Positions 5,825 through 23,180 of a stretch of DNA of 36,477 nt are shown here, one piece after another; position 1 is the stretch's first letter, and every line of letters begins with the position of its first letter. The notes under the pieces are model-generated. The model was not told where the DNA came from, ran no database searches, and saw only the letters and a program-made list of their open reading frames with translations. The DNA comes from a virus. The position numbers and the translations under genes were made by a program. The DNA lies in IMG/VR virus record IMGVR_UViG_3300044970_001476, positions 1 through 36,477 of that record; one strand, written 5' to 3'.

Positions 5825-8800
5825 TTACTCCTCTTGAGTAAGGCTGAATTGGAATGCATCCTGTCCTTCTTTGCCGAACATTTCCAACAGAACTTCTCCG
5901 ATTATTCTTGACCTTTCCATTCTTATTCTTTCATCAAAGTATTCGTAGGCGGGCTCATTTTGCTCAACCAATCTGTCATACTCTTCTTTTGAAGGAATCT
6001 CCTTTAACTCATTGTAGTTTTGACGGACATAATCACCAAACTTAATTGAAAACTTAGTGGCAAAATCATTGAATTGCTTTTTGTCCATTTTGGTTCTTGT
6101 GATTTCTCCTCCATTGCCGATAGTTTCCACGACTTTTGAATCAGGAAGCAGATAGCCTTTTGACTTTTTACTTTCAAAAAGAGCATATTCTTTTGAACTT
6201 TCACCGCCCCTTACACTATTTGAAAAAGGACTTGATGCTTCACCTTCAGGCGAAATCTGAAATAATACCGGACTGTAAAATTTGCCTTCTGCAACATCTA
6301 CGGCTGTAACACCCAATAATGCAGACCTTGTTTTTGTTCTTTTGAGGAGAGGCTTGCCAAAATGGTCGTACTTTATATCTCTGTCAAACAGATTATTAAC
6401 AATAGGCCAATCCCTTGTAGCCAATTCGTACCAAGACAAATCTACTCTGTCCTGATTGCCCATGCCTCCCTCAATGTCCTGCTCGGCAGTCATTAAAATC
6501 CTCGGTATAATTGTGTTTCTTGTCTGAACAGAGATTGTTTTAATCAGCTTTTCTACGTTCTTATCAAATGTATCCTGAGTCATATTGATGGCATCATTCC
6601 TTTGTGAGAAAAGATTAAACATTTCCGACACACCTTTCATCGGGGAGGACTCAAGAGTCATAAGCATTTGACTGACAGACACTTTATACAGAAATCCCTG
6701 ACCTATTTCGTCAATCTTGTCATTAAATAAAAGGGCATCTGATGCAACTCCGGTTGTTCCGAACATTGCCGTATAAACAGGATTGTTTTTGTATGATAAA
6801 ACCTTTTTACCGTTCATGTACACGGTTTGAGGTTCAATGCCCGTTGCTTGCGTAAATGCCTGAGTTCTCCTCCAATTATTGCCTGCATCACCATACATAC
6901 GGCCTGTAATGAATAATCCGTCCTTCCACTTGCCTTGTCTGCCGTCAAGGTCATTTCCGAAGAATTCTTTACGACCCTCCAATCCAAGCCCTTCTGTGTA
7001 TTTTTCTTCGTCATCTTCACCACCTGTCAATGATGTAAGAATGGCCTTGGATTGTTCTCCAAACATAGCTGCAAGGAATCCGGCAGTCATTGTCTGAAAT
7101 GCCAACCATGTAAGCAGCTCTTCCCTTTTTTCAACCCTTCCGCCATAGCCATACATTTCTCTGCGGACATCTATTGATTCGTAAAACTTATCCGCGTTTT
7201 CACCTACACCCAACCCCCTTTTGTTCGTGTAATAATGTTTTATTACGGGAATTATTGATATAGGCGTTGATTTAAGAACAAATGCAGCGCTGTTAAATCC
7301 GGCATTAACGAATTTTATCAAAAGTTCTCCCCCCAATACATTCCTTGCAACCATTTCAATATGATGAGAAATCACACCTATTGTACCGGCGGGCTTGCCC
7401 ACAAGACCTATTTTGCCGCCTGATTCAACAGCCTGCTCATAAAGCCTCTGTAAATCCTCAGATGTAAAAGAAACCCAATCAGGCGTACCGTCAGCACCAA
7501 GCCTCTCCTCTCCAAATTCACGTTGCAATTCATCAACCCTCTGATTCCACAATACGGCTGTCTTGCCTTTCATCTCAAAGTTTTCGCCATACTGCTCCTT
7601 AAACTCTTCGGTTGCCTGAGCCTGAGCACGTTCCTTTATTGTGGGATTAAGGCCCAATAAGTCTTTTGCATATTGCCTTATTTCAGCATTGCTCATTCTC
7701 TCATCTTTAGGCAGTTTTTTATTTTCTGCGTCAAGCCTGTCAAGAACAAAGTCTGCATAATAAAGGTCAGTCATTGCCACGGTAACAAAGGCATCAAGAG
7801 CGTTCAATATCTTACCGGAAAGTGCTACAAACTCAAAATACTTTCTTGCTATAGGATTTTTCTGATGTTTGGCCCTTATCTCCGCAATTGTATTTGATGC
7901 CACATTTGAGCCTTCCCTCATTGTATCATTAATGAGAATACCCTTGGCAGACCGAACACTTTTGTGCATGCCGTTCCAAAGTGCATTACCCATCACTCCG
8001 AGATCCTTTATACGCCCCGTTTCAAAAAATGCTTTTCTTGCCGCTTTCTGACCAAGAACAAACAAAGACATGGTCATGTTTCCGTTTATCACGTTTGTCC
8101 ATGTTCCGTAATCAAACAAGATGTTGGCATATTGATTTCCGAATACATTCTGCCAAAAACCCTTATGCTCACCTTTGAGGTAGGACAGAAACATGTTCAA
8201 ATCCCTTTCCACCATTCTGCGTTGTACGCTGTTAGGCGGCAACTTGGCAATAGCCTCGGTGTATGCCTTTAACATTTCTTGAATCTCCGGCCTGTTGGCA
8301 TCGGGTATTCCGAATTTTTCGGCAAACATGTATAAGGAATCAATCTCACTTATGTTTCCGTCTTTGTCCTTCACCTTAATATTTTTCCCGTCAAAAGCTC
8401 CGAATTTTATAGCCTCTGTAAGTTTTTCGTGTTCTTTCTTTCTTTTGACTTTTGCTTTAAAATCCCCTCCGAGGTTTTTCTTTAAAGCCTGATTTTTCTT
8501 TTCTTCAAAGATTTTATCATACTGCTTATAAAACTCTTCGGCAAGTGCAGAAGCCTCAGATGCGGAAAGGTTGGCATCGTATCTCAGATTGTCGGTGAGC
8601 TGTTGAATAAACTGTTCTCTTGTTGATGCCTGTATTTCGTCTGCCTGTAATAAAACATCCTTTACATCAATTCCCTCTTCTTTTAATTTGCCCTTGACAT
8701 AATTTGGCCCTACTTTCTGCAAAGTCTGTTCTTTCAGCTTCTCGTCAAAGTTGAAATCTTCAAGAAATTTATCTTTTATCCCGTCAAAACTATCTCCGTC

Positions 8801-11800
8801 TATTCCAAGCTTGGAGAGGGCTTCCTTCATCTTTGTCACAAGCTGTGCTGCATTTGCAACACCTTGGTCAAATAGTCCGTCTGCCAATTTAAAGATAAGG
8901 GCATTAAACTCTTTCTGATTTTCATAGGCATCATTTAAATCCATCTTGGCCGAAATCTTGGGATTTGTCAGCCAATCTTTAAGGCCTGCCAATGCCTCAT
9001 CCACCTTCTTCTTGCCTCTTTCTTTTCTTTTTTCGGGGGTGAGGCTTGGTTTGCGAGGAATCTTCTGTCCCGTAACTTTTTCGGCAGCTTCTCTTATGGC
9101 ATCTTTTTTGGCCTTGCCCATTTCCTTTTGTGCCTCTTTTATCCGACCCATCTTGGATTTGGGATCAACAGCTTTGCCCTTACCTTTATCTCCCAATGAT
9201 TGTGCAATATCTCTTCTCTGTTTCTCAACAACAAAGGCATACAACCCTTCGGGGCTTTTTAGCTGAATATCACGCATGGCAGATATAAACTGACCCATGT
9301 CTCGCAACGAATCTGACAGCTTGTTTATAAGTCTTATCTTGTCAATACTTTCTGCCCCGGTTATCAATGAATCGTAAAGATATGCGGGTATAGCTCCAAG
9401 CCTCTTTCCCGAATAAACGCCTGCATCTAAATCGTTTTCAAGCTCTGTTCTCCATTCGTTTCCAAATTTTGCCCTGTATGCTTTTACAACACCCTCGGCA
9501 GCTCTTCTTGATTTATCTTGGCTCTGCTGCTCGTAATCAATTCCTTTTTCAATAAGCCCCTCTATTACTTTTGGTGCTGCTTTGCCTGCTTCAACAACTC
9601 TTTCTTCGGTTGCTTTTCCCCTCATTCTGCCTGCACCTGTTTCCATACCGGACAATGCCTCGCTTGGTTTTTCAGTTTCTTTTGCCACCTGATCGGCGGC
9701 AGCTTTCAGCCTTGAACTTTTTTCTTCACCTTTTTTCTGAGCCTTTGATTCGCCCTGATAGTTTTTAAGGGTTTTTTTACTTACCGCAGCGACAACTTTC
9801 GGATTTTTCAACAACTTGTCCACGTTGGCATCAAACCCGCCGGCATTATAGAATATCTCATTAAGGCCGCTTGATATACCTTTTGATGAATTTGCCTTAT
9901 CGGCTATCTCATTGAGTATCTCCTGCGCATATTTTTCTTTACGCAATGAGCCTTCAAAACCGCCAAACTTTCTGAACTCCTCTGTTTTCTTTTTATCAAA
10001 AGCTAAGGGAAGTGTCGTTTCTGCCCTTAATGGGAACTCGCCCCATTCGGCCACGACCATTTTAAATCCGGCCTTGGCAATAAGGGGATTCATAAAGTCT
10101 ATCTGTCTTGCCGCGTCAAACGCTCCGTTTGGAAATTCTTTTCTGAAATTCTTCTCGGCCTGATCGTAAAAGTTTAACGGATCTTTGTTGAAAGGATATA
10201 CCTGATGCTTAGGCACGGCAACAACGTGTGCATCTCCGCCAACGACAGTTTCTTTTTGATTACCCTTGGTGTAATAATAACTTACCCCGTGGAATCTCTT
10301 GTCGCTTGTATATGCATTTTTGCCCCAATTTTTAGGGTCAATCTTATTGCCTTGGATGTTTCCGTAGTGATAGAATAAGTAATTGCCGTCTGTGTCCATG
10401 TCTATGTCATAAGACTTAGGCACAAGGTTTTTACCCGGCAATGCGGTTTTCTGCCCTTTGCTTGCTTTTGACTTTAACGGCTTCTTGACAGGCTTAGGCG
10501 TGTCAACTGCCTCAACATATTCATTAAGAACAGGTTTCACATCGGCATCGGCAACACCTGAATAAATTGACTGAGCAGCCATCTGTCCGGGCTTGGCAAT
10601 CAAATCCGTCCTTCCGTTTTCCAATAACCACTTAGTAATCTTTTGTTTTTCAATTATCGGAGACTCCTTGCTTAACTTTGTTCCGTATTGATCATTGTAT
10701 AATTCATATGCAGACTCAAAAGGCATTCCCGCATCGGGGAATAAATCATTAACATTGTATGCAGAGTCAAGCATGAAGTTTTCCTCAGATTTGAATTTGG
10801 AATTAAACTGCTTGTGTTTTATGCCGCCCTTTGCATGTTCAATCTGTTGCTCAAGACTTGTTTTTGGATTATAAAAGAATCCTGAGAAAGTCATTCCGCC
10901 AAACACTTTTCCCTTGTCTGCCTGCAATTTTGTTTCATTAAGTTTTGGAAGAAACCTTTCATCCGCAAATTTCTGCCAAAAATCATTCAGAGAATGACCG
11001 ACATCCGACAATGCATTTCTTAATTCAGGATTTTTTTGCTTAGATGTGGCTTTTTTATTGCTCTGATTAGGCATTATTGATCCGTTGAGCTTTACCCTGA
11101 AACCAAAAGATATATCATTTGACGCAAGAAATTCAGACATTTTAAGCCTTTTTTCATGCGTATCAAACTCCCCTGAATCAACCATGTCAAGCAATTTTTT
11201 CTTTAAAATCTGCTCCTTTTCAGCCAATGCCTTTTCCTCCGGAGTCAATTTCTCTTTTTTGCTGCTTTCCTTAATTTCTATGGCAGATATTGCATCCTTA
11301 AAATGCTTTTTGGCTGCTCTTAAACCGCCCTTGTATTTGCCTTTTTGCAAGGAAATGTCAAGGCCCTCCATGATATACTCTGAGGCATACCACTCGCCAA
11401 GCATCGCCTCTCCGTTTTGAGAAACAACAAACACGGCAACGGGCTTACCCTTATGCTGAGGATTTGATTCATCTCTTTTTTGTTGGATGGCCTCGGCAAC
11501 CTTTTTAAGACTTTTGATTTTTGCATCCTCTGATGCCGCAAATCCTATCCCGTCATCAACATTCTTTTCAATAAATGTAAAGTCAAGGCCTCCGTCTATG
11601 CTTAATGTGCGGCCATTTATCTCAACCTCTCCAACTTTTGTGGCATCGCTGTTAACAAAAACGACAGCCCCTCCTGATTTTTCAAAAACCTGAGATATTG
11701 TTTTGGGGTCAGGATATTTCATTTTTATTTTACCCTTATTCCCTACCGGGTTTGTTTTAAACCATTTCACCTTAGCCTTTTCTAAATCTCTGCTTGACTT

Positions 11801-13153
11801 ATTCAATGCATCGGCAGAACCCGCTATCTGATTCCCCGGCTCAATTTCCTGAGCCACATCGGGATTTAAGATTGTCTTTTTAAGTTTAAATTCTTCTAAC
11901 TTTTTGGCAAGATCTTCCTTGCTTATATCTGATGATGTAAGCCCCTTGGACATTGTCTCAAAGAAGTCCCTCACAACATTTGCACTATCCGTCTTGTCAA
12001 ACACGGTTATGCCCGTGTATTTTTTAGAGATGTCATTGATGAATGATTTTACCTTATCAAGCCATGTCTTGTCCTGAAATTTGATTTTATTTGCCGTGAT
12101 TCTTGCCCCCAATTCGGTGAGGAACTCATCGGCCCTTGTTACATCTCCATCGTATTGGGAAACAAACTCATTGAGTGAGTCAATGTCTGCCTGACTTAAT
12201 ATGCCCTTGGCAGCATTAATCATCTCCTTCATTACATTCACATCGTCTGCGATGGATGATGACAAAATCGGGTGTATAATCTCGTGATAAACGGTAACTT
12301 TTGTGGCTCCGTCCATTGCGAAATGAACCTCAACCACATTTCCGTCCTCATCCATGATGACATGGCCGTTATCCATCATGTAGGCACTTGCATTCTTGCC
12401 TGTTGTTTCGGAAACGGAGTTGGCCAAGGATATGCTGTCATTGTGGACAAAGATTTTGGCATCGGGGAATTGCTTTTTCAATGCCTGTGATGCACTTTCC
12501 AATGCATTCACTACCTCGTTATCCTTACCATATTTCTCTTCAATCTGAGCCTTTTGTGTGCCGTAATCCAAGGATGATGATTCATAGGGCTTAATATTGC
12601 CTTTAACATCAATCTCAGCCACAATCTTATCTGATGCATCTCTGATATAAAACATTTCTCCGGCTGACAGGCCTGTCTTTTCAAGAATCCTTCGGGCCTC
12701 ATCAAGACTCCTCACGGAAACCGATTCTCCGTCTGCATACAGAGAATACTGACCGGAATCCATGTCGGACTCCAATTGTTCTGCAAAGTCAACTTTCGCC
12801 TCTCCTTCTACCTGTCCGACCAACCCTTCTTTTTGCGCTTGGACATCGCCTTGAACATCTCTACCTGTTGCAGCCGCTTCTCGGCCTCCTCTTTGCTCAG
12901 GTTCGGCTTCGACAGGTTTTTGCCCGACTCCGACTTCACCACCCATCCTTGGCTTGTTTTCTGTATCATATTCTTTAGCTTTTAATGTTTCGGGTGAGGC
13001 AAACTCAGCTTCAAAGGCTTTCTTATAGCTCTGAGCCAAACTGCCGCTTATCGTGTTGTCGTTTATTTTGTTTATCAGCTCATTTTCAGACAATAGCTTG
13101 ACAAACTCCGCAAGAGTGTACTTCTTGCCGTTATATAAAATGTCACAAGGCAT
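5825..13153 (-). CDS. Giant polyvalent virion protein with HEXXH metallopeptidase domain
   Basis: A 2442-aa protein, much larger than any neighbour and the last gene of the virion operon. The N-terminus is followed by a Gly/Glu-rich linker (about 50-125). Residues about 195-360 form a zinc-metallopeptidase-like domain: KVTVYHEIIHPIL carries HEXXH (H290, E291, H294), with DEFLTELGA (E347) as a likely third ligand. Further domains follow: a segment around FVVSQNGEAMLGEW, an ART-like 'YLFYHYG....YYYTKG' region, long charged helices, and hydrophobic helices in the C-terminal third. This multi-domain arrangement matches the phage polyvalent proteins described by Iyer, Burroughs and Aravind, thought to be ejected into the host with the DNA. 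No RNA polymerase motif was seen. Its start overlaps the ferritin-like stop (TAATG). Confidence 0.7.
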   Translation of the reverse strand: MPCDILYNGKKYTLAEFVKLLSENELINKINDNTISGSLAQSYKKAFEAEFASPETLKAKEYDTENKPRMGGEVGVGQKPVEAEPEQRGGREAAATGRDVQGDVQAQKEGLVGQVEGEAKVDFAEQLESDMDSGQYSLYADGESVSVRSLDEARRILEKTGLSAGEMFYIRDASDKIVAEIDVKGNIKPYESSSLDYGTQKAQIEEKYGKDNEVVNALESASQALKKQFPDAKIFVHNDSISLANSVSETTGKNASAYMMDNGHVIMDEDGNVVEVHFAMDGATKVTVYHEIIHPILSSSIADDVNVMKEMINAAKGILSQADIDSLNEFVSQYDGDVTRADEFLTELGARITANKIKFQDKTWLDKVKSFINDISKKYTGITVFDKTDSANVVRDFFETMSKGLTSSDISKEDLAKKLEEFKLKKTILNPDVAQEIEPGNQIAGSADALNKSSRDLEKAKVKWFKTNPVGNKGKIKMKYPDPKTISQVFEKSGGAVVFVNSDATKVGEVEINGRTLSIDGGLDFTFIEKNVDDGIGFAASEDAKIKSLKKVAEAIQQKRDESNPQHKGKPVAVFVVSQNGEAMLGEWYASEYIMEGLDISLQKGKYKGGLRAAKKHFKDAISAIEIKESSKKEKLTPEEKALAEKEQILKKKLLDMVDSGEFDTHEKRLKMSEFLASNDISFGFRVKLNGSIMPNQSNKKATSKQKNPELRNALSDVGHSLNDFWQKFADERFLPKLNETKLQADKGKVFGGMTFSGFFYNPKTSLEQQIEHAKGGIKHKQFNSKFKSEENFMLDSAYNVNDLFPDAGMPFESAYELYNDQYGTKLSKESPIIEKQKITKWLLENGRTDLIAKPGQMAAQSIYSGVADADVKPVLNEYVEAVDTPKPVKKPLKSKASKGQKTALPGKNLVPKSYDIDMDTDGNYLFYHYGNIQGNKIDPKNWGKNAYTSDKRFHGVSYYYTKGNQKETVVGGDAHVVAVPKHQVYPFNKDPLNFYDQAEKNFRKEFPNGAFDAARQIDFMNPLIAKAGFKMVVAEWGEFPLRAETTLPLAFDKKKTEEFRKFGGFEGSLRKEKYAQEILNEIADKANSSKGISSGLNEIFYNAGGFDANVDKLLKNPKVVAAVSKKTLKNYQGESKAQKKGEEKSSRLKAAADQVAKETEKPSEALSGMETGAGRMRGKATEERVVEAGKAAPKVIEGLIEKGIDYEQQSQDKSRRAAEGVVKAYRAKFGNEWRTELENDLDAGVYSGKRLGAIPAYLYDSLITGAESIDKIRLINKLSDSLRDMGQFISAMRDIQLKSPEGLYAFVVEKQRRDIAQSLGDKGKGKAVDPKSKMGRIKEAQKEMGKAKKDAIREAAEKVTGQKIPRKPSLTPEKRKERGKKKVDEALAGLKDWLTNPKISAKMDLNDAYENQKEFNALIFKLADGLFDQGVANAAQLVTKMKEALSKLGIDGDSFDGIKDKFLEDFNFDEKLKEQTLQKVGPNYVKGKLKEEGIDVKDVLLQADEIQASTREQFIQQLTDNLRYDANLSASEASALAEEFYKQYDKIFEEKKNQALKKNLGGDFKAKVKRKKEHEKLTEAIKFGAFDGKNIKVKDKDGNISEIDSLYMFAEKFGIPDANRPEIQEMLKAYTEAIAKLPPNSVQRRMVERDLNMFLSYLKGEHKGFWQNVFGNQYANILFDYGTWTNVINGNMTMSLFVLGQKAARKAFFETGRIKDLGVMGNALWNGMHKSVRSAKGILINDTMREGSNVASNTIAEIRAKHQKNPIARKYFEFVALSGKILNALDAFVTVAMTDLYYADFVLDRLDAENKKLPKDERMSNAEIRQYAKDLLGLNPTIKERAQAQATEEFKEQYGENFEMKGKTAVLWNQRVDELQREFGEERLGADGTPDWVSFTSEDLQRLYEQAVESGGKIGLVGKPAGTIGVISHHIEMVARNVLGGELLIKFVNAGFNSAAFVLKSTPISIIPVIKHYYTNKRGLGVGENADKFYESIDVRREMYGYGGRVEKREELLTWLAFQTMTAGFLAAMFGEQSKAILTSLTGGEDDEEKYTEGLGLEGRKEFFGNDLDGRQGKWKDGLFITGRMYGDAGNNWRRTQAFTQATGIEPQTVYMNGKKVLSYKNNPVYTAMFGTTGVASDALLFNDKIDEIGQGFLYKVSVSQMLMTLESSPMKGVSEMFNLFSQRNDAINMTQDTFDKNVEKLIKTISVQTRNTIIPRILMTAEQDIEGGMGNQDRVDLSWYELATRDWPIVNNLFDRDIKYDHFGKPLLKRTKTRSALLGVTAVDVAEGKFYSPVLFQISPEGEASSPFSNSVRGGESSKEYALFESKKSKGYLLPDSKVVETIGNGGEITRTKMDKKQFNDFATKFSIKFGDYVRQNYNELKEIPSKEEYDRLVEQNEPAYEYFDERIRMERSRIIGEVLLEMFGKEGQDAFQFSLTQEE
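12993..13006 (+). repeat. Dispersed repeat variant inside the giant gene (encodes FASPE)
   Basis: GGTGAGGCAAACTC; the first 11 bases match the consensus. Read on the minus strand it gives FASPETLK near residue 51 of the 2442-aa protein, in a linker. Confidence 0.6.
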
Positions 13154-13644
13154 TATGCAAATAATTTATCTTCGATAAGTAAAAGATTGATTTTTGTAGG
13201 CTCTACACCCTCAAGCATGTTCAGCATGTCGGCATATTTTGCCACACTTTCCGTCTGTATTCCCCTGTATTTTTGAAGGAAATCAAACGAACAAGGATCG
13301 GGAATGTCAAATATCTTCATGCTTGTATCTTCGTATGCCTCGTACAGATCATACTCTAATTGATAAGCCTTCTCAATAATCTCCATCAGCGAGCTGAATG
13401 TTTCGGGCTTGGCTATTACGGGCAAGTCGGGAAGCACGTTCCAATCAACGAGGTAGTTCTGCAACCCCTCGGAGTGTTCAAGTTCTTCCTTCGATTCATG
13501 GTCAAAGTATTCCGCAGCTTTAAAGAAGCCGTTATCCTTGGCCCAATTAGCCGCAGAACGGTAGAAATACATAGCTTTGTACTCATCACTTATTCTCGGT
13601 GTGATGAGCTGTACTGATTCGCGTATAAGTTTATTTGGTTTCAT
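13153..13644 (-). CDS. Ferritin-like iron-binding protein
   Basis: A 163-aa protein with the four-helix ferritin pattern and length close to bacterial ferritins (about 165). Likely ferroxidase ligands are visible: E21 in DEYKAMYFYRSAANWAKDNGF, E54 and H57 in the ExxH motif of HESKEELEHSEG, E97 in YQLEYDLYEAYE, and Q130/E132 in GIQTESVAKYADML. The typical 'DWNVLP' loop after helix B is also present. Ferritins oxidise Fe(II) and store Fe(III) in a 24-mer shell. Here the gene sits inside the virion operon: its start is 4 nt from the upstream stop and its stop overlaps the start of the giant polyvalent gene. A virion-associated role or iron handling during infection is possible; neither is shown. 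Confidence 0.85.
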   Translation of the reverse strand: MKPNKLIRESVQLITPRISDEYKAMYFYRSAANWAKDNGFFKAAEYFDHESKEELEHSEGLQNYLVDWNVLPDLPVIAKPETFSSLMEIIEKAYQLEYDLYEAYEDTSMKIFDIPDPCSFDFLQKYRGIQTESVAKYADMLNMLEGVEPTKINLLLIEDKLFA

Positions 13645-13648
13645 AATT

Positions 13649-16606
13649 TTATGGACAGTTTCCTACCTGCTCAAATTTAAGTTGTTTTTTTAAATTATTC
13701 CAATTATTATAGATAAATTCAGCCTTTCTGTTTGATTTTGATTTCTCACGGATGGCGTTTGCTATATCTCTCTGCTCTTTTACAGACTTGCCTTTCTTTT
13801 GGTCTAACAGGGCTGATATATCTTCAAAGGCTTTTGTTGTCTGCTCTACTTCAATGGCTTTTGTTTCGGGTGAGGCAACGCTTGGTGCAGTTACACCTTT
13901 AGTTACACCCTCAGTTACACCCTCAGTTACACCCTCAGTTACACCCTCAGTTTTTGCGGCAGCTTTTTCAAATTTAGGCAATTTACCTTGCTCAAGTGAT
14001 TTTGATATTTCCCTGAATTGCTCTGAGGTAAAGTTTGCAGGATTTAAGCCATCGGAGCCTGTCTTAACATTTTCATAAGTATCTAAATCAAACAGACTTT
14101 CCTGACCGGCCATCTTCCCAAACTCTAACGCAGTTTGTCTGTGCTGCCTTGGCACGACAACATTAAGGTCAATGGATGCATTATTGCTGTTTGGAAATTT
14201 GTAAATCCCAACCTTAACAGAATTAGAACCTATCTTATCTGTATTTTTCTCCACAAAATCGGCTATACGCTCAGGGGTCAATTCCGCCTGTGTCAAATTC
14301 TCACTAACTATCGGGACAACCAATCCGCCGTCTTTATATACCGTACCATCTGAATTGAATGTCTGACCCGTTTCTTCTTCAAATTTGGCAGAAACAACGG
14401 CATCAACATCAGGCTTTGTATTGACAACTATTTTACTTCTTTCAATAGGGAAAACACCTTCTATCTTGATAGGTTGAACTTCGGGTACAGCCATAGCTTG
14501 ACTTTCTGCCCCTTCTTGTAAAGGTAACACTTGACTTTCTTGTGTGGGTGAGGCAACGCTTGGCACAGGCTCACCTATCTGTACCTGCTCTGTAACAACC
14601 TCTGACACGGGTGCAACTTCGGGGGCGGGTGGCAGTTCGGCTTTTAACCTTTCGGCTTCGGCTAAAAAATCTGCTGCATCTTTAGGCGAAAAATCTTTTA
14701 CGGCTTCGGCTTTTTCTTGCAGCTCAATTATTTTACCTTTACTCGCAAGCCTGTCCATGTCCTCATTCAACATTCGGTCATATTCGGCTGTTTCTTTTGC
14801 TTTAAGGTCTTTTAATGCAGAAATCTGAACTTCATTTAGTCCCCTTGCATCGGCAAGTTTATTGTCTATTTCATCAACTTTTCTTTTTTGCTCAAGTGTT
14901 TTGGGGCTTGCAATAGGTTTTTTATTTAAAAGGTGATTTTCAAATTCACGCACCAAAGCCATTGACCGGTCAATTTCTGCCTGTTCTTCTTTATTAGCCG
15001 AGGCCCTCCTATCCATTAATGATTTACCTACAAGTCCAATAGATTTAAGCGCAAAACCCATTGTAAAACCAATTCCGGCTGCATCATCAATCCCTTCCAA
15101 AACGCCCCTTGTTTCATCATAAATACTATTTGCTGATGCATTTGTCAGAATTTGAGAAATTATTTCTTGACCGGACTCCTGAGCGCCTTGAATAAAAGGA
15201 GCTAACGGGCTTTTTTCTGCTATGTTTATAATGTCATCAACTCCGCGTTTTTTAAAATACCTTGACACGCCTCCACCTGTTCTTTTGTCAAGTTTATTTA
15301 ACCATCCGACAAAAGGCAAACCTTCCAATGAGCCTATTGCGGAATCTATTAAAAACATTTTGCTTGCAACCTCTTCGGGATCTTTACCCCTTAATTCATT
15401 ATATGCATTTCCTGCAGAGCTTCTTGTTTCATAATTATCGCCGCCATATTTATTTACAAACTCATCGTATTTTAGATAATTAGCATCAAAAACTTTTTCC
15501 CTTGCTGTTTCATATTCGGAAACTCCATTTTGCATCGCTCCCAAAAAAGAAACTGCCGCAGGGCCTCCAATCGTTCCTACCGCCCCGTACAATGGCAAAT
15601 CCCCGGTTAATGCCGACATTAACTTATAGGAAAACTTATCTACAACAAGAGGATTTACATGATGATGCTCCTCCCTTATCTCATCTACAATGTTTCCGAG
15701 CTTATAAAGAGGATTGTCTTTCGGTTGCGCCCCCTCCGGCTTAAATAGTTCCCATCCCGCTTTCGCCCCCGGCATTATTAACCATGAAATAGCCTCTGTA
15801 ATATCATCGTCAGATGACATTATAATAGCCGGCCCTTTTAACAAAAAGTCAGTAAGCCCTTTAATAATATTATTTCCACCGACCTGAGCATAAGACACCC
15901 ATTCGGGAATAGTTTTTATTTTTAATTGATCTTCAGCAGATAATTTTTCAAAACCGATTCTGTCATTAAGTTCACCTAATCTGTTTTGCAAATCAGCATA
16001 TTCAGGGCTTTCGCTAAAATCTGACTCGCCCTTTTTTAATTTATCTGTTGCTATTTCATTAAGCCTGTTTTCTAAAAATGTTTTTTGTTGTTGTAGATTT
16101 TTTAAATCTTGATTTTCATCTATTTGTTTTTTTATCTCGCCTTTGTAGGTGTTATATGCTTTTAATGTATTAATCCTTACTCCCTTTTCTCCCTGTGGTG
16201 CAAGGGCTTTTTCGGCTAATGTGACAGGTGCTTGATATTTTTTACTCACATCTACTCCTTCTGCCACAATCTGACCGCCCGTTTTAGGGGCAAGCTGAAT
16301 GGCTGATGCTGTTGTGCCTAAATTTACACTACCCGTCCCTACGCCCGATACGGATGTTGATTTCGATGTAGAAGGAGCAGTTTTTGTAGATATAGGAGGC
16401 TGCTGCGGAGAGGCTTGCTTTGAGCCTTGCCCCATACCCACCGGCCCACGCAATGAAGGCGTTGCCGAAGGTGCTGCTGAAGGTTCTTTTTTTTTTAATG
16501 GAATGCCAAATTCATCAACCTCTTGTTTAGCGACTTTCTTTTTTATCGGAATGCCAAATTCATCTACTTCTCCTCCGTTTTGCGGAGTTATTGGGTTTTG
16601 ATCCAT
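13649..16606 (-). CDS. Large internal virion/ejection-type protein, 985 aa
   Basis: The N-terminus carries two copies of VDEFGIP(I/L)KKK (residues about 14-42), then a Pro/Ser/Thr/Ala-rich linker to about residue 115. The centre has helical stretches with Gly/Ala-rich, mildly hydrophobic segments (GDLPLYGAVGTIGGPAAVSFLGAM, GIDDAAGIGFTMGFAL), as in injected phage proteins that cross membranes. A coiled-coil region (about 590-680) leads to another linker, a beta domain (about 740-890) and a TEGV tandem repeat before the C-terminus. SVASP occurs twice, each encoded by an exact GGTGAGGCAACGCTTG copy. No catalytic motif is evident. The gene is tightly packed between the 572-aa and ferritin-like genes. 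The ejection role is inferred from size, composition and position. Confidence 0.6.
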   Translation of the reverse strand: MDQNPITPQNGGEVDEFGIPIKKKVAKQEVDEFGIPLKKKEPSAAPSATPSLRGPVGMGQGSKQASPQQPPISTKTAPSTSKSTSVSGVGTGSVNLGTTASAIQLAPKTGGQIVAEGVDVSKKYQAPVTLAEKALAPQGEKGVRINTLKAYNTYKGEIKKQIDENQDLKNLQQQKTFLENRLNEIATDKLKKGESDFSESPEYADLQNRLGELNDRIGFEKLSAEDQLKIKTIPEWVSYAQVGGNNIIKGLTDFLLKGPAIIMSSDDDITEAISWLIMPGAKAGWELFKPEGAQPKDNPLYKLGNIVDEIREEHHHVNPLVVDKFSYKLMSALTGDLPLYGAVGTIGGPAAVSFLGAMQNGVSEYETAREKVFDANYLKYDEFVNKYGGDNYETRSSAGNAYNELRGKDPEEVASKMFLIDSAIGSLEGLPFVGWLNKLDKRTGGGVSRYFKKRGVDDIINIAEKSPLAPFIQGAQESGQEIISQILTNASANSIYDETRGVLEGIDDAAGIGFTMGFALKSIGLVGKSLMDRRASANKEEQAEIDRSMALVREFENHLLNKKPIASPKTLEQKRKVDEIDNKLADARGLNEVQISALKDLKAKETAEYDRMLNEDMDRLASKGKIIELQEKAEAVKDFSPKDAADFLAEAERLKAELPPAPEVAPVSEVVTEQVQIGEPVPSVASPTQESQVLPLQEGAESQAMAVPEVQPIKIEGVFPIERSKIVVNTKPDVDAVVSAKFEEETGQTFNSDGTVYKDGGLVVPIVSENLTQAELTPERIADFVEKNTDKIGSNSVKVGIYKFPNSNNASIDLNVVVPRQHRQTALEFGKMAGQESLFDLDTYENVKTGSDGLNPANFTSEQFREISKSLEQGKLPKFEKAAAKTEGVTEGVTEGVTEGVTKGVTAPSVASPETKAIEVEQTTKAFEDISALLDQKKGKSVKEQRDIANAIREKSKSNRKAEFIYNNWNNLKKQLKFEQVGNCP
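13869..13884 (+). repeat. Dispersed repeat, exact GGTGAGGCAACGCTTG
   Basis: Exact 16-bp copy, encoding PSVASPE on the minus strand in the 985-aa protein. It directly flanks the 12-bp tandem repeat. The same 16 bp occur at 14547-14562 and 27011-27026. Confidence 0.8.
13889..13948 (+). repeat. 12-bp in-frame tandem repeat (five units)
   Basis: Four exact units of AGTTACACCCTC (13901-13948) and one preceding unit differing at two bases. On the minus strand they encode repeated T-E-G-V, giving a flexible acidic linker. Copy number could change by slippage without breaking the frame. Confidence 0.9.
14547..14562 (+). repeat. Dispersed repeat, exact GGTGAGGCAACGCTTG
   Basis: Second exact 16-bp copy in the same gene, encoding PSVASPTQ. 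It lies in a Gln/Glu/Pro-rich linker before the C-terminal beta domain. Confidence 0.8.
16500..16564 (-). repeat. Duplicated N-terminal motif VDEFGIP, two copies 48 bp apart
   Basis: The 17-bp plus-strand string GGAATGCCAAATTCATC occurs at 16500-16516 and again at 16548-16564. The 48-bp offset equals 16 codons, so both encode DEFGIP in frame, each followed by a Lys run. Confidence 0.85.
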
Positions 16607-16607
16607 G

Positions 16608-18326
16608 TTATTTTTCTATTTGAATCCCTTTTTGTTGTAAAAGTTTTCTGTATTCTGACTCTGAATACCCTGCATTTTTAGCTTTTCCGGCTATTTCAGA
16701 TTCTTTTATTGTTTTTCTTGTTGTTGTAGGTGAGGCAGCGCTTGCTCCACTTGGCTTGTTAATTCCGTAATAATCGTAAATATCTCCGCTTGGTTTCTCA
16801 CCGGCTAAGTCATAAACAGGGTTTTTGCCTCTGTAATTTACATAAGATGCATAAAGAGGAGCCACATCCTGCCATTTTGCAAATACGGTTTTGGAAACAT
16901 CTTTTGTTCCCGATTTGTATGTTATAGCACCCTCGGCCCAAGGCTCCCATTCAATGTGTCCGCTTGGAACTGTATAGTTATGCTTTTTAATTATATCAAA
17001 TGTTTCTTCCGTCATTACCGAACCAGCCCTTACCGCAGAAATAACATTTCCTGTGTCATCTCTTACTACAAAATCTTTTTTAACGGTAGGAAGATAAACA
17101 CCATTCTGATACCTGAAATCAACAGGAGTTACCGAGTCTTTTAATCGTAAAGTTCCCGCTTCTTTGGTTTCATCTAAATTAACATAACTTCTGATGTTCA
17201 TCTTGTCAAGCTCACCTTGTTGACCGGGTGTTCCGTAGGCAAATGCCCCTTCGGGGAAGCTGACAGTTGTTTTGGCAACACCTGCGCTTGATATTTGACC
17301 CGCCGGCATTTTTCTTGCCACACCTTCATATTGCTGAGAAACGGGTGGTCTTTCCCCTGCACCCATATTTATTCCGATATTTATTCCGCCCGTTCCGCTT
17401 TCAACATCCGACTTGGCAACCAAATCTTTGTAATAATAGTCCTGAGCGTATTTACGGGGATTCTCATATACGGCTTGCTCTTCGGGAGTCAACCTGTTAA
17501 ACTCATACCTCATCTGATTTTCAAAGCGAATATCACCTTGATAAAATCTGTCAAGTATTCTCTTGGCCTCCTCCTCTTTTACCTCTTTTGTTAAAGTTTT
17601 TTTCTTGCCTTCCAAGTCTCCCTGAGCAGACATGTTAAAAATCTTTGCAGCCTCGGCAGATGCTACCGGCATCCACGTTGTAACAGGATATTGCTTTGGA
17701 ACCTGCAATAAGTCGCCTCTTTTTTCGTTTTGCGTGAGTAGCGCAGCATATTGCCTTACATCATCTTCATCATAACTCCCTTCGGGAAGGGCAGACATTC
17801 TTTGCTTAGCCGCTTCAAGATTTCTATTGTACGCCTCGGCAACTCCGGGATAATAATTTTCTGTTGCAAATTCGGGATTTTCAAATACTGTAAAATTTTC
17901 AGAAGCAACATCCCGCAATGCCCCTGCATCTCTGTTTACTGCATTTTGTGCAGCTAAATATTGTGTATAATTTGAATTTACGGCATTTACAAGTCCGTCA
18001 TTAAATGTTTTAAACAGACTTGCTTTTTGCGCAACTTCGTTTTGACGGCCTTCTGTAAAAGCTTTTGTTATCCAATCGGATTGTTTTGATTGTAAATTTG
18101 TGGCAACGCCTATGTATTTTGTCCAATTCGGGGCTTTTGTTGATGCTAATTTTAATGCATCTTCTTTTTGCTTTTCATCGGCCTTTTTCTTTTCCTGCAT
18201 CATGGCAAGTTTGGCCTGCCCTTTCATCAGCTCTGCCTGATAAGGGTCATAGGATGTCCAAGGCGCTTTAAATGCAGCACCCGTTGCGTCCTGTCCGGTA
18301 TATACTAAGCCAAGTGGATCTGCCAT
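16608..18326 (-). CDS. Internal virion-type protein, 572 aa
   Basis: A 572-aa protein starting MADPLGLVYTGQDATGAAF. Residues about 30-240 are helical and charged (MKGQAKLAMMQEKKKADEKQKEDALK and following, coiled-coil-like), and the remainder is beta-rich with a C-terminal basic helix (ESEYRKLLQQKGIQIEK). No enzyme motif or membrane segment is visible. Long helical proteins of this type, lying between a Q-rich membrane-active protein and a giant protein, are common among podoviral internal core/ejection proteins. It starts 3 nt after the 280-aa gene stop and ends 1 nt before the next start. A variant of the dispersed repeat (16729-16744) encodes SAASP near the C-terminus. Role inferred. Confidence 0.6.
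   Translation of the reverse strand: MADPLGLVYTGQDATGAAFKAPWTSYDPYQAELMKGQAKLAMMQEKKKADEKQKEDALKLASTKAPNWTKYIGVATNLQSKQSDWITKAFTEGRQNEVAQKASLFKTFNDGLVNAVNSNYTQYLAAQNAVNRDAGALRDVASENFTVFENPEFATENYYPGVAEAYNRNLEAAKQRMSALPEGSYDEDDVRQYAALLTQNEKRGDLLQVPKQYPVTTWMPVASAEAAKIFNMSAQGDLEGKKKTLTKEVKEEEAKRILDRFYQGDIRFENQMRYEFNRLTPEEQAVYENPRKYAQDYYYKDLVAKSDVESGTGGINIGINMGAGERPPVSQQYEGVARKMPAGQISSAGVAKTTVSFPEGAFAYGTPGQQGELDKMNIRSYVNLDETKEAGTLRLKDSVTPVDFRYQNGVYLPTVKKDFVVRDDTGNVISAVRAGSVMTEETFDIIKKHNYTVPSGHIEWEPWAEGAITYKSGTKDVSKTVFAKWQDVAPLYASYVNYRGKNPVYDLAGEKPSGDIYDYYGINKPSGASAASPTTTRKTIKESEIAGKAKNAGYSESEYRKLLQQKGIQIEK
16729..16744 (+). repeat. Dispersed repeat, one mismatch (GGTGAGGCAGCGCTTG)
   Basis: Differs from the 16-bp consensus by a single A-to-G change. 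On the minus strand it encodes S-A-A-S-P in the C-terminal linker of the 572-aa protein. Confidence 0.75.
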
Positions 18327-18329
18327 GTT

Positions 18330-19172
18330 TTATTGTGGATTAACCGGTTGATACCAAGGGTTTGCCTGAATTAAAGGAAATTGATTTGGCTGCTGATAAT
18401 TTGGAATATCGCTACCCATCATTTGTGACCAATTCAAATTATTTACAGCAGGCGCAGCTGTGCTTGCACCCGGTTGAATCTGTTGATTTTTATTGTATAA
18501 ATTCTTGTAAAAATCCATCATTTCCTTATTCTGCTGCTGCGCTCCGTAAGTACCCAAAGCCCCCGTTACACCTCCGAGAATGTTGCTCATCGCAGCATTT
18601 GTCAATGCAGATTTAGCAGCCATTGATTGTTGATAAGGCTGATTTACGTTGTAATCCCAAACGCCTTGTTGAGCCTGTCCGTATTGGTTCAATGCCTGAT
18701 TCAATGCCTGCTGCTGTCCCAATCTGAACTCCTGCTGACGGCCCTGCATACCTTGTAATGCCTCCAACTCTTTTGCGTAAATATCCGAAACGGCTCCCGC
18801 AGCCCCGGCAGTTCCTCCCGTGATTTCTTTTATATTTTGTGTGGCGGCAGCACCCTGTTGCCTGATTTGATTCAGCATGGCATCCGTGCCGGGTGCTTTT
18901 TCCATAGCGGCCAATCTTCTCTGATTCTCCAACGCCTCTTTTTGTGCGGACGGAATGTCCATGATGGGTCTCTGTTTTCTCTGCCTTGAGGCCATGCCAG
19001 CCTGAACAGCACCCAACACCAACGGAATGGCCGCAGCGACAATGTTTGCCCAATTCTTAGCCATGCCCTTTGTGTGCGGTGGTTTGCAAAATAAATCAAG
19101 AACGACTGCAAGTGCTATAAGGCTTGCAAAGAAAATAAAGTCGTTTGTTGTTATGGAATCTATAATTATCAT
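18330..19172 (-). CDS. Gln-rich internal virion protein with N-terminal membrane segments
   Basis: The chosen ATG (MIIIDSITTNDF) gives 280 aa; a longer TTG-start frame to 19190 would begin inside the TACATTTG promoter box. Two hydrophobic segments are visible near the N-terminus: FIFFASLIALAVVLDLF (about 11-28) and ANIVAAAIPLVLGAVQAGMA (about 40-60). The rest is rich in Gln, Ala, Gly and Asn with helical repeats (GQQQALNQALNQYGQAQQG). Small Ala/Gln-rich proteins with an N-terminal membrane-active segment resemble T7 gp14-type ejection proteins. It is the first gene of the unit that continues through the 572-aa, 985-aa, ferritin-like and giant genes, under the promoter at 19188-19219. Function inferred. 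Confidence 0.6.
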   Translation of the reverse strand: MIIIDSITTNDFIFFASLIALAVVLDLFCKPPHTKGMAKNWANIVAAAIPLVLGAVQAGMASRQRKQRPIMDIPSAQKEALENQRRLAAMEKAPGTDAMLNQIRQQGAAATQNIKEITGGTAGAAGAVSDIYAKELEALQGMQGRQQEFRLGQQQALNQALNQYGQAQQGVWDYNVNQPYQQSMAAKSALTNAAMSNILGGVTGALGTYGAQQQNKEMMDFYKNLYNKNQQIQPGASTAAPAVNNLNWSQMMGSDIPNYQQPNQFPLIQANPWYQPVNPQ

Positions 19173-19187
19173 CGCCTTATGTTTAGG

Positions 19188-19219
19188 CAAATGTAAGTCA
19201 AATATAAATTATTAGCAAA
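19188..19219 (-). promoter_or_regulatory. Bacteroidota promoter, TTTG-N20-TACATTTG
   Basis: On the minus strand TTTG (19216-19219) is exactly 20 nt upstream of TACATTTG (19188-19195), which is 15 nt from the ATG at 19172. It probably drives the five-gene internal virion/ferritin/giant-protein unit. Confidence 0.75.
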
Positions 19220-19228
19220 TGTTTTTAC

Positions 19229-19251
19229 GGAGAGGCTACCTTTGCCTCACC
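19229..19251. repeat. Inverted form of the dispersed repeat: two 8-bp arms, 7-bp centre
   Basis: GGAGAGGC and GCCTCACC flank a 7-bp centre (TACCTTT); the arms pair except at one position. It lies between the stop at 19252 and the -33 box at 19216. No U-tract follows on either strand, so it is not a canonical terminator. A similar element with the same flanking T-run lies at 30921-30951. Confidence 0.65.
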
Positions 19252-20064
19252 TTAATACCCTTGTTTCTTACGCATTTCTGCGCTTTGTTTCAAATATGGC
19301 TGTCTTAAATTATCTGCAATATATCCGATAATCAGGTTTGCAATCTCAGGTTTTACCTCATCACTCCACTCAAGCTCCTGCGTCTGACTGATTACCTGAC
19401 CGACAGTCTGCCCCGTTCTTGAAACCTCGCCAAGCTGCAACATGTATATCTGCCCCTGAGCCAAGAAATAATAACTTCCGTCAGGGCGGATGATATAATC
19501 CAACAAGGGCTTTTTAGGCATACGCAGATACACAAAGTTTATGTATTGATTTGCCCACTTCGGCCTAAACTCAATGTATTTATTCTGAAAGTTGCAATAA
19601 GGAAATGCATCTACGTTTTTATTTTTCACATAGCTGCCTATTCTGTCTACAAATCCCGCATCGGTTAATATCTCAATATTTCGCGGTATGAGGCTGTTTG
19701 GCATATCGCACTCATCGCCCATAGCTTGTACATAAGACATCCGTACAAAATGAACATAGTCAGATGGTATCTGCGCTACTCCGTTTTGAATTTGGAGAGG
19801 CGAGGGATCGTCTGCTCCGGGGCCACCCATATTTACCTTGCAATCTTTAAGGTTATCAAGTATTCTCTGCGTAACTTCAAAAGCTACGGGAGGCAATGGT
19901 GCGCCGGGGCGGTACATCTGAGGCAATCCGTACAGATATGAAAACATTTCCGTGTTGGCAATGCCCAAATCCACATTGAATTGGTCAAGACGATAGGTAT
20001 TACCCGATTGGTCTTTGTTTACCCTTGTGAATATGTGGTCGTATATATCTTTTAAAAGAAGCAT
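19252..20064 (-). CDS. Structural protein, head-tail adaptor candidate, 270 aa
   Basis: A 270-aa soluble protein beginning MLLLKDIYDHIFTRVNKDQ, with an alpha-helical N-terminus, a beta-rich middle (IQIPSDYVHF-like region, YIEFRPKWANQYINFVYLRMP) and a C-terminal helix (EIANLIIGYIADNLRQPYLKQSAEMRKKQGY). The 'IP.DY.....' segment and helix arrangement resemble podoviral adaptor/tail-tube-type proteins, but I cannot assign a family. It follows the fibre genes with a 3-nt gap and is the last gene of that unit. The role in head-tail joining is inferred from size and position. Confidence 0.5.
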   Translation of the reverse strand: MLLLKDIYDHIFTRVNKDQSGNTYRLDQFNVDLGIANTEMFSYLYGLPQMYRPGAPLPPVAFEVTQRILDNLKDCKVNMGGPGADDPSPLQIQNGVAQIPSDYVHFVRMSYVQAMGDECDMPNSLIPRNIEILTDAGFVDRIGSYVKNKNVDAFPYCNFQNKYIEFRPKWANQYINFVYLRMPKKPLLDYIIRPDGSYYFLAQGQIYMLQLGEVSRTGQTVGQVISQTQELEWSDEVKPEIANLIIGYIADNLRQPYLKQSAEMRKKQGY

Positions 20065-20067
20065 CTA

Positions 20068-21177
20068 TTATGGAGCAATATTGCTTACAACGCGATACAA
20101 TACACTTACCTCTATTGTGCTGTTTCCGGCAGTCGGATTTCCTCCGCTTACTGTTAAATAAACAGGGGCATTTAATGCAAGTTGATTTTGAACTTCACTT
20201 ACAAGAGGAACCTCATCAAATTTATATCTTCTCTGTTGTGTTGTTTTTAAGCAATCACACTCAAACATAATTCCGGGGCCGCTAAATAATTGCAAGTTGG
20301 TATGAGAAGCGTAAGGGGCTGACAAGGTTAAAACCCTCACGGTTGCACTTACGACATCTATGTATGTACCTGCGCCTTGTGCCGGAACGATTACAACAGG
20401 AATTGTATGCAAGGTTAAAATGTTTGCTGACGAAACCGAAACGGTCAGCTCCTTTAACTGAGTTCCCGTAAATCCTATCCCGCTTGTTGTGGCAGCAAGC
20501 CCACCCGCAGGGTCAAGTTTAACCTTTAATCCCGTGGCACTTTTTTCAAGACCGGATGTAGAATCATATTTTACACCAAGCTCATTAGCCACTATTTCAA
20601 GCGATGGGTTTGCAGCTTGAAGATTTACCCCGATACCATTGCTGTTTTTTGTAATGGCTCTTGACGGGTCAAGTTTAACACCAAGCTCATTTGTTGATAC
20701 CTGCAAAGATGGCTGTACGGCCTCAAGATTCGGAATGACACCGCCGCTTCCATTTCTTGCCATTCCGGAGCCTGCAATGTCGTTTTCTAACTTAACGGCG
20801 GGAACAGAGTTGTCAACAATTTCAGAACCTTCAAAACTTGCAGAACCGCCTGAAGAATTATAAATTGAACGCTCCCAAGTTGCCCCGTTGTATCTGTAAA
20901 CAATCAGACATGGCCGAAGTGCATTTATATCAGGAACAATATCTCCGTTTATGGTAAATTTACTTGCCCCTGCCGTATTGATCCCCCCGACAATATTAAA
21001 GTCAAGGCGACATCCGCTAAACGGAGTTCCGGTAAATGCTATTGCCTTTGTTCCGGTAATTTGACTTCCCCTGTCAATAGTCACACGATATTCAAATGCC
21101 GTAGTGTCTGTAACATCAATAGATAATGTCTGTCCCGTTATGCCCAAAAAGGCTATTTCACTAATCGCTGTTTTCAT
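20068..21177 (-). CDS. Repeat-containing tail fibre protein, 369 aa
   Basis: Residues about 125-240 contain imperfect fibre repeats of the form 'psL.v..nelGVKlDps.gi....nGigV.l' (LQVSTNELGVKLDPSRA, LEIVANELGVKYDSTSG, SATGLKVKLDPAGG). Such short beta repeats are typical of trimeric phage fibre shafts. The N-terminal 120 residues are beta-rich and may bind the tail; the C-terminal 120 residues may be the tip. It lies between the Cys-rich tail protein (1-nt TAATG overlap) and the adaptor candidate (3-nt gap), a tightly coupled tail unit. Host receptor binding is the likely role, inferred from repeats and position. Confidence 0.7.
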   Translation of the reverse strand: MKTAISEIAFLGITGQTLSIDVTDTTAFEYRVTIDRGSQITGTKAIAFTGTPFSGCRLDFNIVGGINTAGASKFTINGDIVPDINALRPCLIVYRYNGATWERSIYNSSGGSASFEGSEIVDNSVPAVKLENDIAGSGMARNGSGGVIPNLEAVQPSLQVSTNELGVKLDPSRAITKNSNGIGVNLQAANPSLEIVANELGVKYDSTSGLEKSATGLKVKLDPAGGLAATTSGIGFTGTQLKELTVSVSSANILTLHTIPVVIVPAQGAGTYIDVVSATVRVLTLSAPYASHTNLQLFSGPGIMFECDCLKTTQQRRYKFDEVPLVSEVQNQLALNAPVYLTVSGGNPTAGNSTIEVSVLYRVVSNIAP

Positions 21178-23180
21178 TATTTTTTAAATGCTTTATATTG
21201 TGAATACTGACAAATTGCAGCCCCGCTTGGCACTAACGTAAAATATGTAGGAGCAATAACAAGCCCTGTTGTTGTTATGTCTGCAACAGTTATTGTTCCA
21301 AAATACATCGTGTCTGAATTTAATGTTCCTGACTCATTTACCAAGTATTGACCATGCTCAATTTTCCAAAATATGCTTGTTGCAGAAACCCTTACCAATG
21401 TCAGTTTGGAAACAAGCTGTCGCTCACCCCTTCCTGCCAAAAATCCTCTTAACGTAACAGGTGTTCCGTTTATTGAAAATCCACATCCCAATGGGGCTGT
21501 AACCAAATCTGCCACCGTAAAGACCGCCTCTGCTTCAACAACATCACCATTAACGGACAATGGATTATTTCCCGTAGCCAACGGCAACTGAATATCCATG
21601 CTTGTATAATCGCCATTGGTGCTTCTTGATTGAGATGTGGTAAATGAATCAATTAAAAACGCCTTGCTGTAAGTAACGGGCGCAGCACTCGGAACCCATG
21701 CAGAACCATTCCACATAAGATACTGATTCATTACGGGAGAAGGAGCTGTTACATCGCCCAAATCATCAAGCAAAAGATTTGTATTTTCCCATTCCGTGCC
21801 GTTCCATACCAATGTCTGACCGGCTTGAACGCTTGTTATTGTTACATCGGAGAGGCTTCCCAACGATGATGGGTTTGCCGAGATATATGATGCAATATTA
21901 GAGTCAAGTACCGATAAGTCAAGACATACGTTATATGTTGTTGTGTTTCCTACCGTGTTTGATGTAACTTCAATTCCGTTTCCGCAACTTGTGACAACAA
22001 CGGTATCTCCAGATCCGGCAGAAACTCCGCAAAGAGGCACAACGGGAACGGGCAATCCGTCATCATCTCCGTCACAGCACTCGCAATTTTCGCTTTTTGC
22101 TATGTTGATTATTTCGCTGAGATACTTGGCTTTATTTGTAAAATCCCCACAAGAGTGTGCGGCTGAATACAACATCCAAGCGGTAGTCATCTTAAACAGC
22201 TTGGGGAAAAACTCGGCAGCCCTTGACGGATTTGTCTGAAGATATGACTCGTATTTATTGCGAAGGTTTGCCATGCATGAATACACGCAGCAAAGACCTT
22301 CTGCGCAATCCACCGTGTATTCGTCCTGACCATAAACAACCATTTGAATTATAAGTCCTGTCGGCAAAACATATTCGACATTTGTAGTTATGGTTGTAGT
22401 CCAAGTTTTTGTAAAAATAGGCGAGACTGTGACCGTAGGCAAACTTGATGTTATAATGCCAATAACGGGAGCGCCATTAGCGCCAAGAGGTGCAGTTATT
22501 TTATGTATTCGAAAAAGATTATATGGTTGAATTGTGGTTCCGCAAACATTAATATTGTAATTTGTAATATCCCGGCTTACAATTACCGAACAATCACAAT
22601 CAATACTTGGCTGAATTTCAACAACAGGGGCGTCATAACAAAACTCATAATTATATGTCTTGTTTTCATATAAAAAATAAGAAATGAAAACCCCATTTTC
22701 AAGACCTCCAAAAGACTGTACTACATTAACTACCGTTTCACCTCCGATAAACTGAGAGGACACAACGGTATATGTTCCCGGATAACTTCCGGTGTTTATT
22801 TCAAACAAAAATCCCGGAACAAAAGTTGATGTCAAATCAACACCGCTTATGGTTAATTCTTGAGTACCTGTAATATCTGCGGTGTATGCGTATGATATTC
22901 TTATACGATAATCAACCGTATAGTTCCCCTGAATTGGATTGTTTTGTGAATTAATTGGCAGATTTTTTTGCAAAGAATCCGTTATTCCCGGTAGTATGTC
23001 CGGAGAATTAAAGTTTGTGTTGTTGTAAAACACACCTGAAGGCCCGGTAAAGGTAAGACACCCGGCCACATTAGCCGGATTAACTGATTGCCCTACATAG
23101 TTTGTAGTATCAGTAAAAAATATCGTTTTAGGCGCAAGGTTTAAAAAAAACTTCGTTTCCGCTGTTAGCAATAATGGCAT
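21177..23180 (-). CDS. Large Cys-rich tail fibre/appendage protein, 667 aa
   Basis: A 667-aa beta-rich protein. The central part (about 280-380) is unusually rich in Cys for a phage protein: DCDCS, VDCAEGLCCVYSC and ENCECCDGDDDG. The C-terminal half has two fibre-type repeats of the form 'LsDVt.t....gQ.L.WNGt.W' (GSLSDVTITSVQAGQTLVW and DDLGDVTAPSPVMNQYLMW), common in phage fibres. The C-terminus is a compact beta domain. No enzyme motif is evident. The Cys clusters may bind metal or form disulfides in the virion. It starts the fibre/adaptor unit, after a bidirectional terminator-like hairpin at 23211-23253. Confidence 0.65.
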   Translation of the reverse strand: MPLLLTAETKFFLNLAPKTIFFTDTTNYVGQSVNPANVAGCLTFTGPSGVFYNNTNFNSPDILPGITDSLQKNLPINSQNNPIQGNYTVDYRIRISYAYTADITGTQELTISGVDLTSTFVPGFLFEINTGSYPGTYTVVSSQFIGGETVVNVVQSFGGLENGVFISYFLYENKTYNYEFCYDAPVVEIQPSIDCDCSVIVSRDITNYNINVCGTTIQPYNLFRIHKITAPLGANGAPVIGIITSSLPTVTVSPIFTKTWTTTITTNVEYVLPTGLIIQMVVYGQDEYTVDCAEGLCCVYSCMANLRNKYESYLQTNPSRAAEFFPKLFKMTTAWMLYSAAHSCGDFTNKAKYLSEIINIAKSENCECCDGDDDGLPVPVVPLCGVSAGSGDTVVVTSCGNGIEVTSNTVGNTTTYNVCLDLSVLDSNIASYISANPSSLGSLSDVTITSVQAGQTLVWNGTEWENTNLLLDDLGDVTAPSPVMNQYLMWNGSAWVPSAAPVTYSKAFLIDSFTTSQSRSTNGDYTSMDIQLPLATGNNPLSVNGDVVEAEAVFTVADLVTAPLGCGFSINGTPVTLRGFLAGRGERQLVSKLTLVRVSATSIFWKIEHGQYLVNESGTLNSDTMYFGTITVADITTTGLVIAPTYFTLVPSGAAICQYSQYKAFKK

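Follow-up and report, generated by a model that had tools for sequence, protein, structure and literature searches.

The 36,477-base linear virus record IMGVR_UViG_3300044970_001476 of IMG/VR (hereafter the window; such records are often fragments) contains a gene for a 163-residue ferritin, P0001, at positions 13153..13644. An earlier reading of the letters alone, here called the sequence-only reading, had placed a phage ferritin at these positions, and its coordinates were right: the frame runs from 13644 to 13153 on the minus strand, and the plus strand is interrupted by several stops. P0001 matched the Pfam Ferritin family (PF00210) with an E-value of 2.2e-19 and 70.2 bits, against a cut-off of 24.5. 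Structure prediction, which the same reading had proposed as a check, returned a confident five-helix ferritin: with 18 aligned sequences as input, the AlphaFold model had a mean predicted local distance difference test score (pLDDT) of 92 and a predicted template modelling score of 0.87. The modelled helices span residues 8-37, 41-67, 86-112, 117-144 and 151-162, that is, four long helices and a short C-terminal E helix, and P0001 is thus predicted to adopt the four-helix bundle with E helix that is found in ferritins of the 24-mer type. Its best match among solved structures was Vibrio cholerae ferritin 3qz3 (Z 22.8, root mean square deviation (rmsd) 1.5 Å over 160 residues, 29% identity). 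The G+C content of the gene (41.5%) is close to that of the window (42.3%), hence there is no sign of a recent arrival. Judged from its sequence, P0001 is a genuine ferritin gene and not a chance frame because of the PF00210 score, the existence of 19 homologous ferritin loci in IMG/VR (two scans), and the low ratio of nonsynonymous to synonymous substitution (dN/dS) in pairs of these homologues.

P0001 was also compared with the hallmarks of related subfamilies. In bacterioferritins, E127 and H130 replace Q127 and E130 of FtnA, whereas P0001 has Q130 and S133 at the equivalent positions. Dps proteins bind iron at an inter-subunit site and have no C-terminal E helix, whereas P0001 shows intra-subunit ligands and a modelled E helix. 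Lastly, P0001 does not have the full site C, the third iron site of classical FtnA, and we therefore file it as a ferritin and not as a classical FtnA.

The sequence-only reading had listed E21, E54, H57, E97 and Q130/E132 as apparent ferroxidase ligands. We examined these positions in an alignment of 18 phage rows, comprising P0001 and 17 of the 19 homologous loci (L008 and L012 were omitted as identical to L007 and L011). E21, E54, H57, E97 and Q130, together with Y28, were invariant in 18/18 rows, and by alignment they correspond to E17, E50, H53, E94, Q127 and Y24 of Escherichia coli FtnA. E132 did not hold up as part of this set, since the position is a glutamate in just six of the 18 rows and aligns with E129 of E. 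coli FtnA, a site C residue. With this correction, the proposed ferritin does appear to have its A/B ferroxidase centre intact.

Site C has as its ligands E49, E126, E129 and E130, as described in PMC7762939; residue numbers in the site C counts below are those of E. coli FtnA. Glutamate is found at positions 126 and 130 in none of the 18 phage rows but in 20/20 bacterial rows, while the A/B ligands are unaltered; two further bacterial rows (L048 and L049) were removed from this count, having been judged bacterioferritin-like from their sequence and long branch. P0001 itself has glutamate at 49 and 129, isoleucine at 126 (its own residue 129) and serine at 130 (its own residue 133), and it is the only phage row that keeps E49.

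A tree of 18 phage rows and 22 bacterial rows (19 from Actinomycetota, the phylum of genome G019, and three from plasmids) was built from a slightly different set: L013 was dropped (identical to L010), L028 was added, and the weak or partial bacterial sequences L054-L059 as well as L034 (the same gene as L028) were left out. The phage rows all fell on one side of a branch with a support of 96/67, and did so in 96% of 200 bootstrap trees. The phage ferritins therefore appear to form one clade, separate from these 22 bacterial rows only, among which there are no Bacteroidota. Eight homologue pairs were compared by the NG86 method; three were identical, and the remaining five gave dN/dS of ~0.015, 0.026, 0.037, 0.058 and 0.040, the last with a saturated dS of 2.1. 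Such low values imply that selection maintains the protein in that clade.

Turning to the surroundings of the gene, the ferritin stop codon and the start codon of the next gene overlap by 1 nt in the motif TAATG (13151..13155, minus strand). The downstream gene (5825..13153, minus strand) encodes a giant protein of 2442 residues, two stretches of which (214-415 and 901-1051) are 29-33% identical to gp18 of Flavobacterium phage elemo, annotated as 'structural protein'. The giant protein had no match in Pfam or PHROGs, and its comparison with solved structures returned nothing useful. The sequence-only reading had described the ferritin as translationally linked to a giant ejection-type protein; the link stands in the form of the 1-nt overlap with a structural-type giant gene, from which coupled translation of the two would be expected, but 'ejection-type' was a guess that neither Pfam nor PHROGs bears out.

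On the other side, a 985-residue orphan gene (13649..16606, minus strand) ends 4 nt upstream of the ferritin gene and matched nothing in Pfam, PHROGs or phage records; its product bears a repeated VDEFGIP-KKK motif at the start and a run of TEGV repeats near the end. Further upstream are the genes f572, g286, h270, i369 and the fibre-like j667, which matched phrog_9729 (16608..23180, minus strand), a major-capsid-type gene (24574..26007, minus strand; phrog_13704, virion structural protein; relatives in L024 and L026), and a portal gene (27219..29651, minus strand; phrog_6547). All genes from the portal gene to the giant gene, several orphans included, are on the minus strand, so that 'inside the virion operon' is a fair description of the gene order. 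The portal protein has relatives in 86 records, from phages of Flavobacterium, Cellulophaga and Tenacibaculum, one being named only Caudoviricetes; hence the host of the window phage is likely a member of the Bacteroidota.

Records with a related virion module allow the place of the ferritin gene to be compared. The elemo record NC_055853 does not contain a ferritin anywhere along its length: gp18 directly follows gp19, the neighbours are in view, and the ferritin's place is empty. Likewise, no ferritin was found in a 77-kb relative (G001) that shares the virion module. The two are entered as linear or partial records, so the absences are no more than suggestive. Three near-identical fragments of the window's kind (L021-L023) end short of the ferritin region.

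We then considered the contexts of the 19 homologous ferritin loci, as seen in scans of selected neighbour genes. The upstream neighbour came from a dUTPase cluster in five of the 19. In L002, an example that was scanned, genes for ribonucleotide reductase (RNR), DnaB, UvsX and SSB lie just upstream of the ferritin, the RNR matching the B12-dependent class (PF21995), and in L020 the ferritin is near a class I RNR small subunit (phrog_86), with a partial head-tail adaptor match in its upstream neighbour. Other contexts are structural. The gene order in L016 (2505-6449) is tail sheath, tail tube, ferritin and T4-type baseplate, the baseplate match of 24.4 bits being just under the Pfam cut-off of 24.5; the gene next to the ferritin of L009 bears a phage tail lysozyme domain, and a tape-measure-like gene lies six genes upstream of the ferritin in L017.

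A downstream orphan gene overlaps the 3' end of the ferritin gene in ten of the 19 loci (L002, L003, L007, L008, L011, L012, L015 and L017-L019), and the same kind of partner is present in L028. Its product is ~460-615 residues long, except for a copy of 165 residues in L019 that is cut by the end of the locus. The partner profile had no match among solved structures, and the AlphaFold model of the partner failed, with a pLDDT of 37. A hypothetical protein of Flavobacterium phage immuto has a short motif in common with the N-terminal region of the partner, which may also contain a nuclease-like motif. We also noted that the ferritins of L002, L003, L007, L011, L015, L017-L019 and L028 have a similar N-terminal extension of ~18-20 residues that has no counterpart in P0001.

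L028 (WLOB01000499.1) is a 3.2-kb contig in an Actinomycetota metagenome-assembled genome that carries a phage-clade ferritin next to the partner gene. Across 149 genomes of that phylum, the best ferritin match outside the assembly of L028 scored 57.7 bits, compared with 262.7 bits for L028, which is probably stray phage DNA. Among 50,697 isolated-phage records, no match was found with P0001 or the L007 ferritin at an E-value of 0.01, nor with the L016 ferritin at an E-value of 10. A control query with E. coli FtnA matched seven of these records, six of them well and over the full length, which shows that isolated phages do have ferritins of another type.

Our preferred explanation, to which we give somewhat more credence than doubt, is that P0001 forms a cage with ferroxidase activity in the host cytosol, late in infection, and so detoxifies iron during virion assembly. 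P0001 would be functional, belong to a phage-specific clade of non-haem ferritins and be expressed late from the structural operon, and its position before the giant gene would provide for late, co-ordinated expression. Inside the infected cell, probably that of a Bacteroidota host, its subunits would assemble in the cytoplasm into a hollow cage, presumably a 24-mer. Fe2+ would enter the cage, be oxidised at the diiron centre (E21/E54/H57/E97/Q130), and be stored as ferric mineral; with less free iron, phage DNA and proteins may in turn suffer less Fenton damage during the construction of virions. We propose that iron passes quickly through the centre because the site C residues are lost in the whole phage clade, and this loss would probably suit detoxification and not regulated storage. 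An accessory enzyme is suggested because the homologues lie in unrelated positions, many beside nucleotide-metabolism genes, and the absence of the ferritin from relatives with the same virion module also speaks for this explanation. The detoxification of iron and reactive oxygen species (ROS) draws further support from reports that interpret phage ferritin and Dps as ROS defence (PMC6802176, PMC8008677).

Several observations weigh against this explanation. According to PMC4653698, removal of E130 in a diatom ferritin raises mineralisation ~10-fold, but E. coli FtnA without E49 or E130 regenerates more quickly while oxidising more slowly, so loss of site C does not by itself imply fast turnover, and that the cage is tuned in this way is an inference for which the evidence points both ways. 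P0001 sits on a long branch and no near-identical allele was found, so that the dN/dS values describe its homologues and not P0001. A virion protein would also fit the location of the ferritin gene among structural genes and the order in L016, where the ferritin lies between tail tube and baseplate. Lastly, ferroxidation driven by O2 would be restricted in an anaerobic host.

Among the alternatives, the sequence-only reading had put forward a virion-linked ferritin as a concrete case of the Ferrojan Horse hypothesis of iron in phage tails. As a virion component, the ferritin would be packaged with the giant protein, ejected beside it or located in the tail, and would bring iron or ferroxidase activity to the new host or bait iron receptors. 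The operon position, the 1-nt overlap with a structural-type giant gene, the gene order of L016, and the adjoining tail lysozyme gene of L009 are in keeping with this idea, as is the detection of Sajous1 gp217, named ferritin by Phyre2, in virion mass spectrometry (PMC10892097). A bolder form makes P0001 a site-C-less, fast-turnover ferritin built into the particle or ejected with the giant, which in the first minutes gives the new host a ferroxidase cage or shows iron to receptors, L016 being a second independent case; we regard this form as improbable. Membership of the virion was not supported by the comparison with relatives, however: the ferritin is absent from NC_055853 and G001 although the virion module is shared, and homologues are found in unrelated contexts, beside dUTPase and RNR genes among others. 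In phages about half of the genes are structural, so nearness to one would be weak evidence, and we rejected gene order alone as proof of a virion function, given module relatives that do not carry the ferritin and homologues that move between modules. In addition, the Sajous1 study reported no dependence on TonB or FeoB (PMC10892097). Overall, a virion component seems to us quite unlikely.

Storage of host iron for iron-dependent phage enzymes, or an altered release of iron at lysis, is unlikely to be the role of P0001, even if the RNR genes near the homologues in L020 and L002 would suit it. The scan of window proteins (some small open reading frames were outside it) recognised neither an RNR nor any other iron enzyme, the RNR of L002 belongs by its match to the B12-dependent class, which needs no diiron centre, and loss of site C would point to fast turnover over controlled storage. 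Physical protection of phage DNA by binding, perhaps in the head, has a precedent in the ferritin-like Dps proteins of phages (PMC8008677), but it is a very remote prospect for P0001, whose modelled E helix and intra-subunit ligands are those of a 24-mer ferritin and both differ from Dps. We give hardly any weight either to a passenger or structural scaffold in which the ferritin fold is kept and catalysis is no longer important; the long branch of P0001 and the lost site C would agree with it, but all A/B ligands are kept in P0001 and across the clade, and dN/dS is low in the homologue pairs.

Of the known systems, bacterial FtnA is closest to P0001. The ferritins of V. cholerae (3qz3), Helicobacter pylori (5c6f) and E. 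coli (1eum) share with it the fold, the E helix, the A/B ligands and Tyr24, and among solved structures they were the best matches by sequence (3qz3, 2.9e-13; phage profile, 2.4e-21). Unlike FtnA, all 18 phage rows are without E126 and E130, and they branch apart from the 22 bacterial rows. Against the phage profile, FtnA scored 79.5 bits and SynFtn of marine picocyanobacteria ~41 bits (the tree contained no SynFtn row); we take chains 5ouw, 6gka and 6som to be SynFtn. As defined in PMC7762939, SynFtn resembles the phage ferritins in that site C is absent and the diiron centre is kept, and that account describes it as a class possibly tied to stress. The same source notes that the ferroxidase site of Dps differs from that of 24-mer ferritins.

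Phage ferritins as such are already known. PMC6802176 lists ferritin of freshwater phages as an entry among ROS genes and interprets it as ROS prevention, whereas here context, clade, ligands and site C were analysed; and the BFVD phage 'Ftn' fragment A0A6J5MFB8 is 41% identical to P0001 (rmsd 1.3 Å). The Dps and Mn-catalase of gut phages (Gratiaviridae and others), proposed to act against reactive oxygen (PMC8008677), are also phage-borne and ferritin-like but belong to other subfamilies, P0001 being of the five-helix Ftn type. In the Vi01-like phage Sajous1, gp217 was detected by mass spectrometry and called 'ferritin' by Phyre2 at 22% identity, its gene was proposed to share an operon with a tail completion gene, and the phage infected TonB- and FeoB-deficient Salmonella strains with similar efficiency (PMC10892097). 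The related Vi01 genome had no PF00210 match at an E-value of 0.001, and none to the phage ferritin profile at an E-value of 1.

In the available text of open-licence PMC articles, phage ferritins were listed but not dissected, and we found neither a phage ferritin clade without site C nor the coupling of a ferritin to a giant structural gene described; the loss of site C in one phage clade looks new. Retention of the catalytic diiron site in a clade without the third iron site of bacteria would mean that phages have retuned an iron enzyme. The window ferritin also lends itself to a simple test of whether iron proteins occur in virions; its presence there, if confirmed, would provide direct evidence of phage-carried iron.

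Two further features lie beyond the structural operon. A lone tyrosine-recombinase-like domain of 142 residues (5396-5824, plus strand) abuts the end of the giant gene on the opposite strand; it matched Pfam Phage_integrase with 24 bits, under the cut-off of 27.1. Downstream of the operon is a glycosyltransferase gene (3277-4779, minus strand), which matched phrog_1579 with an E-value of 3.2e-82.

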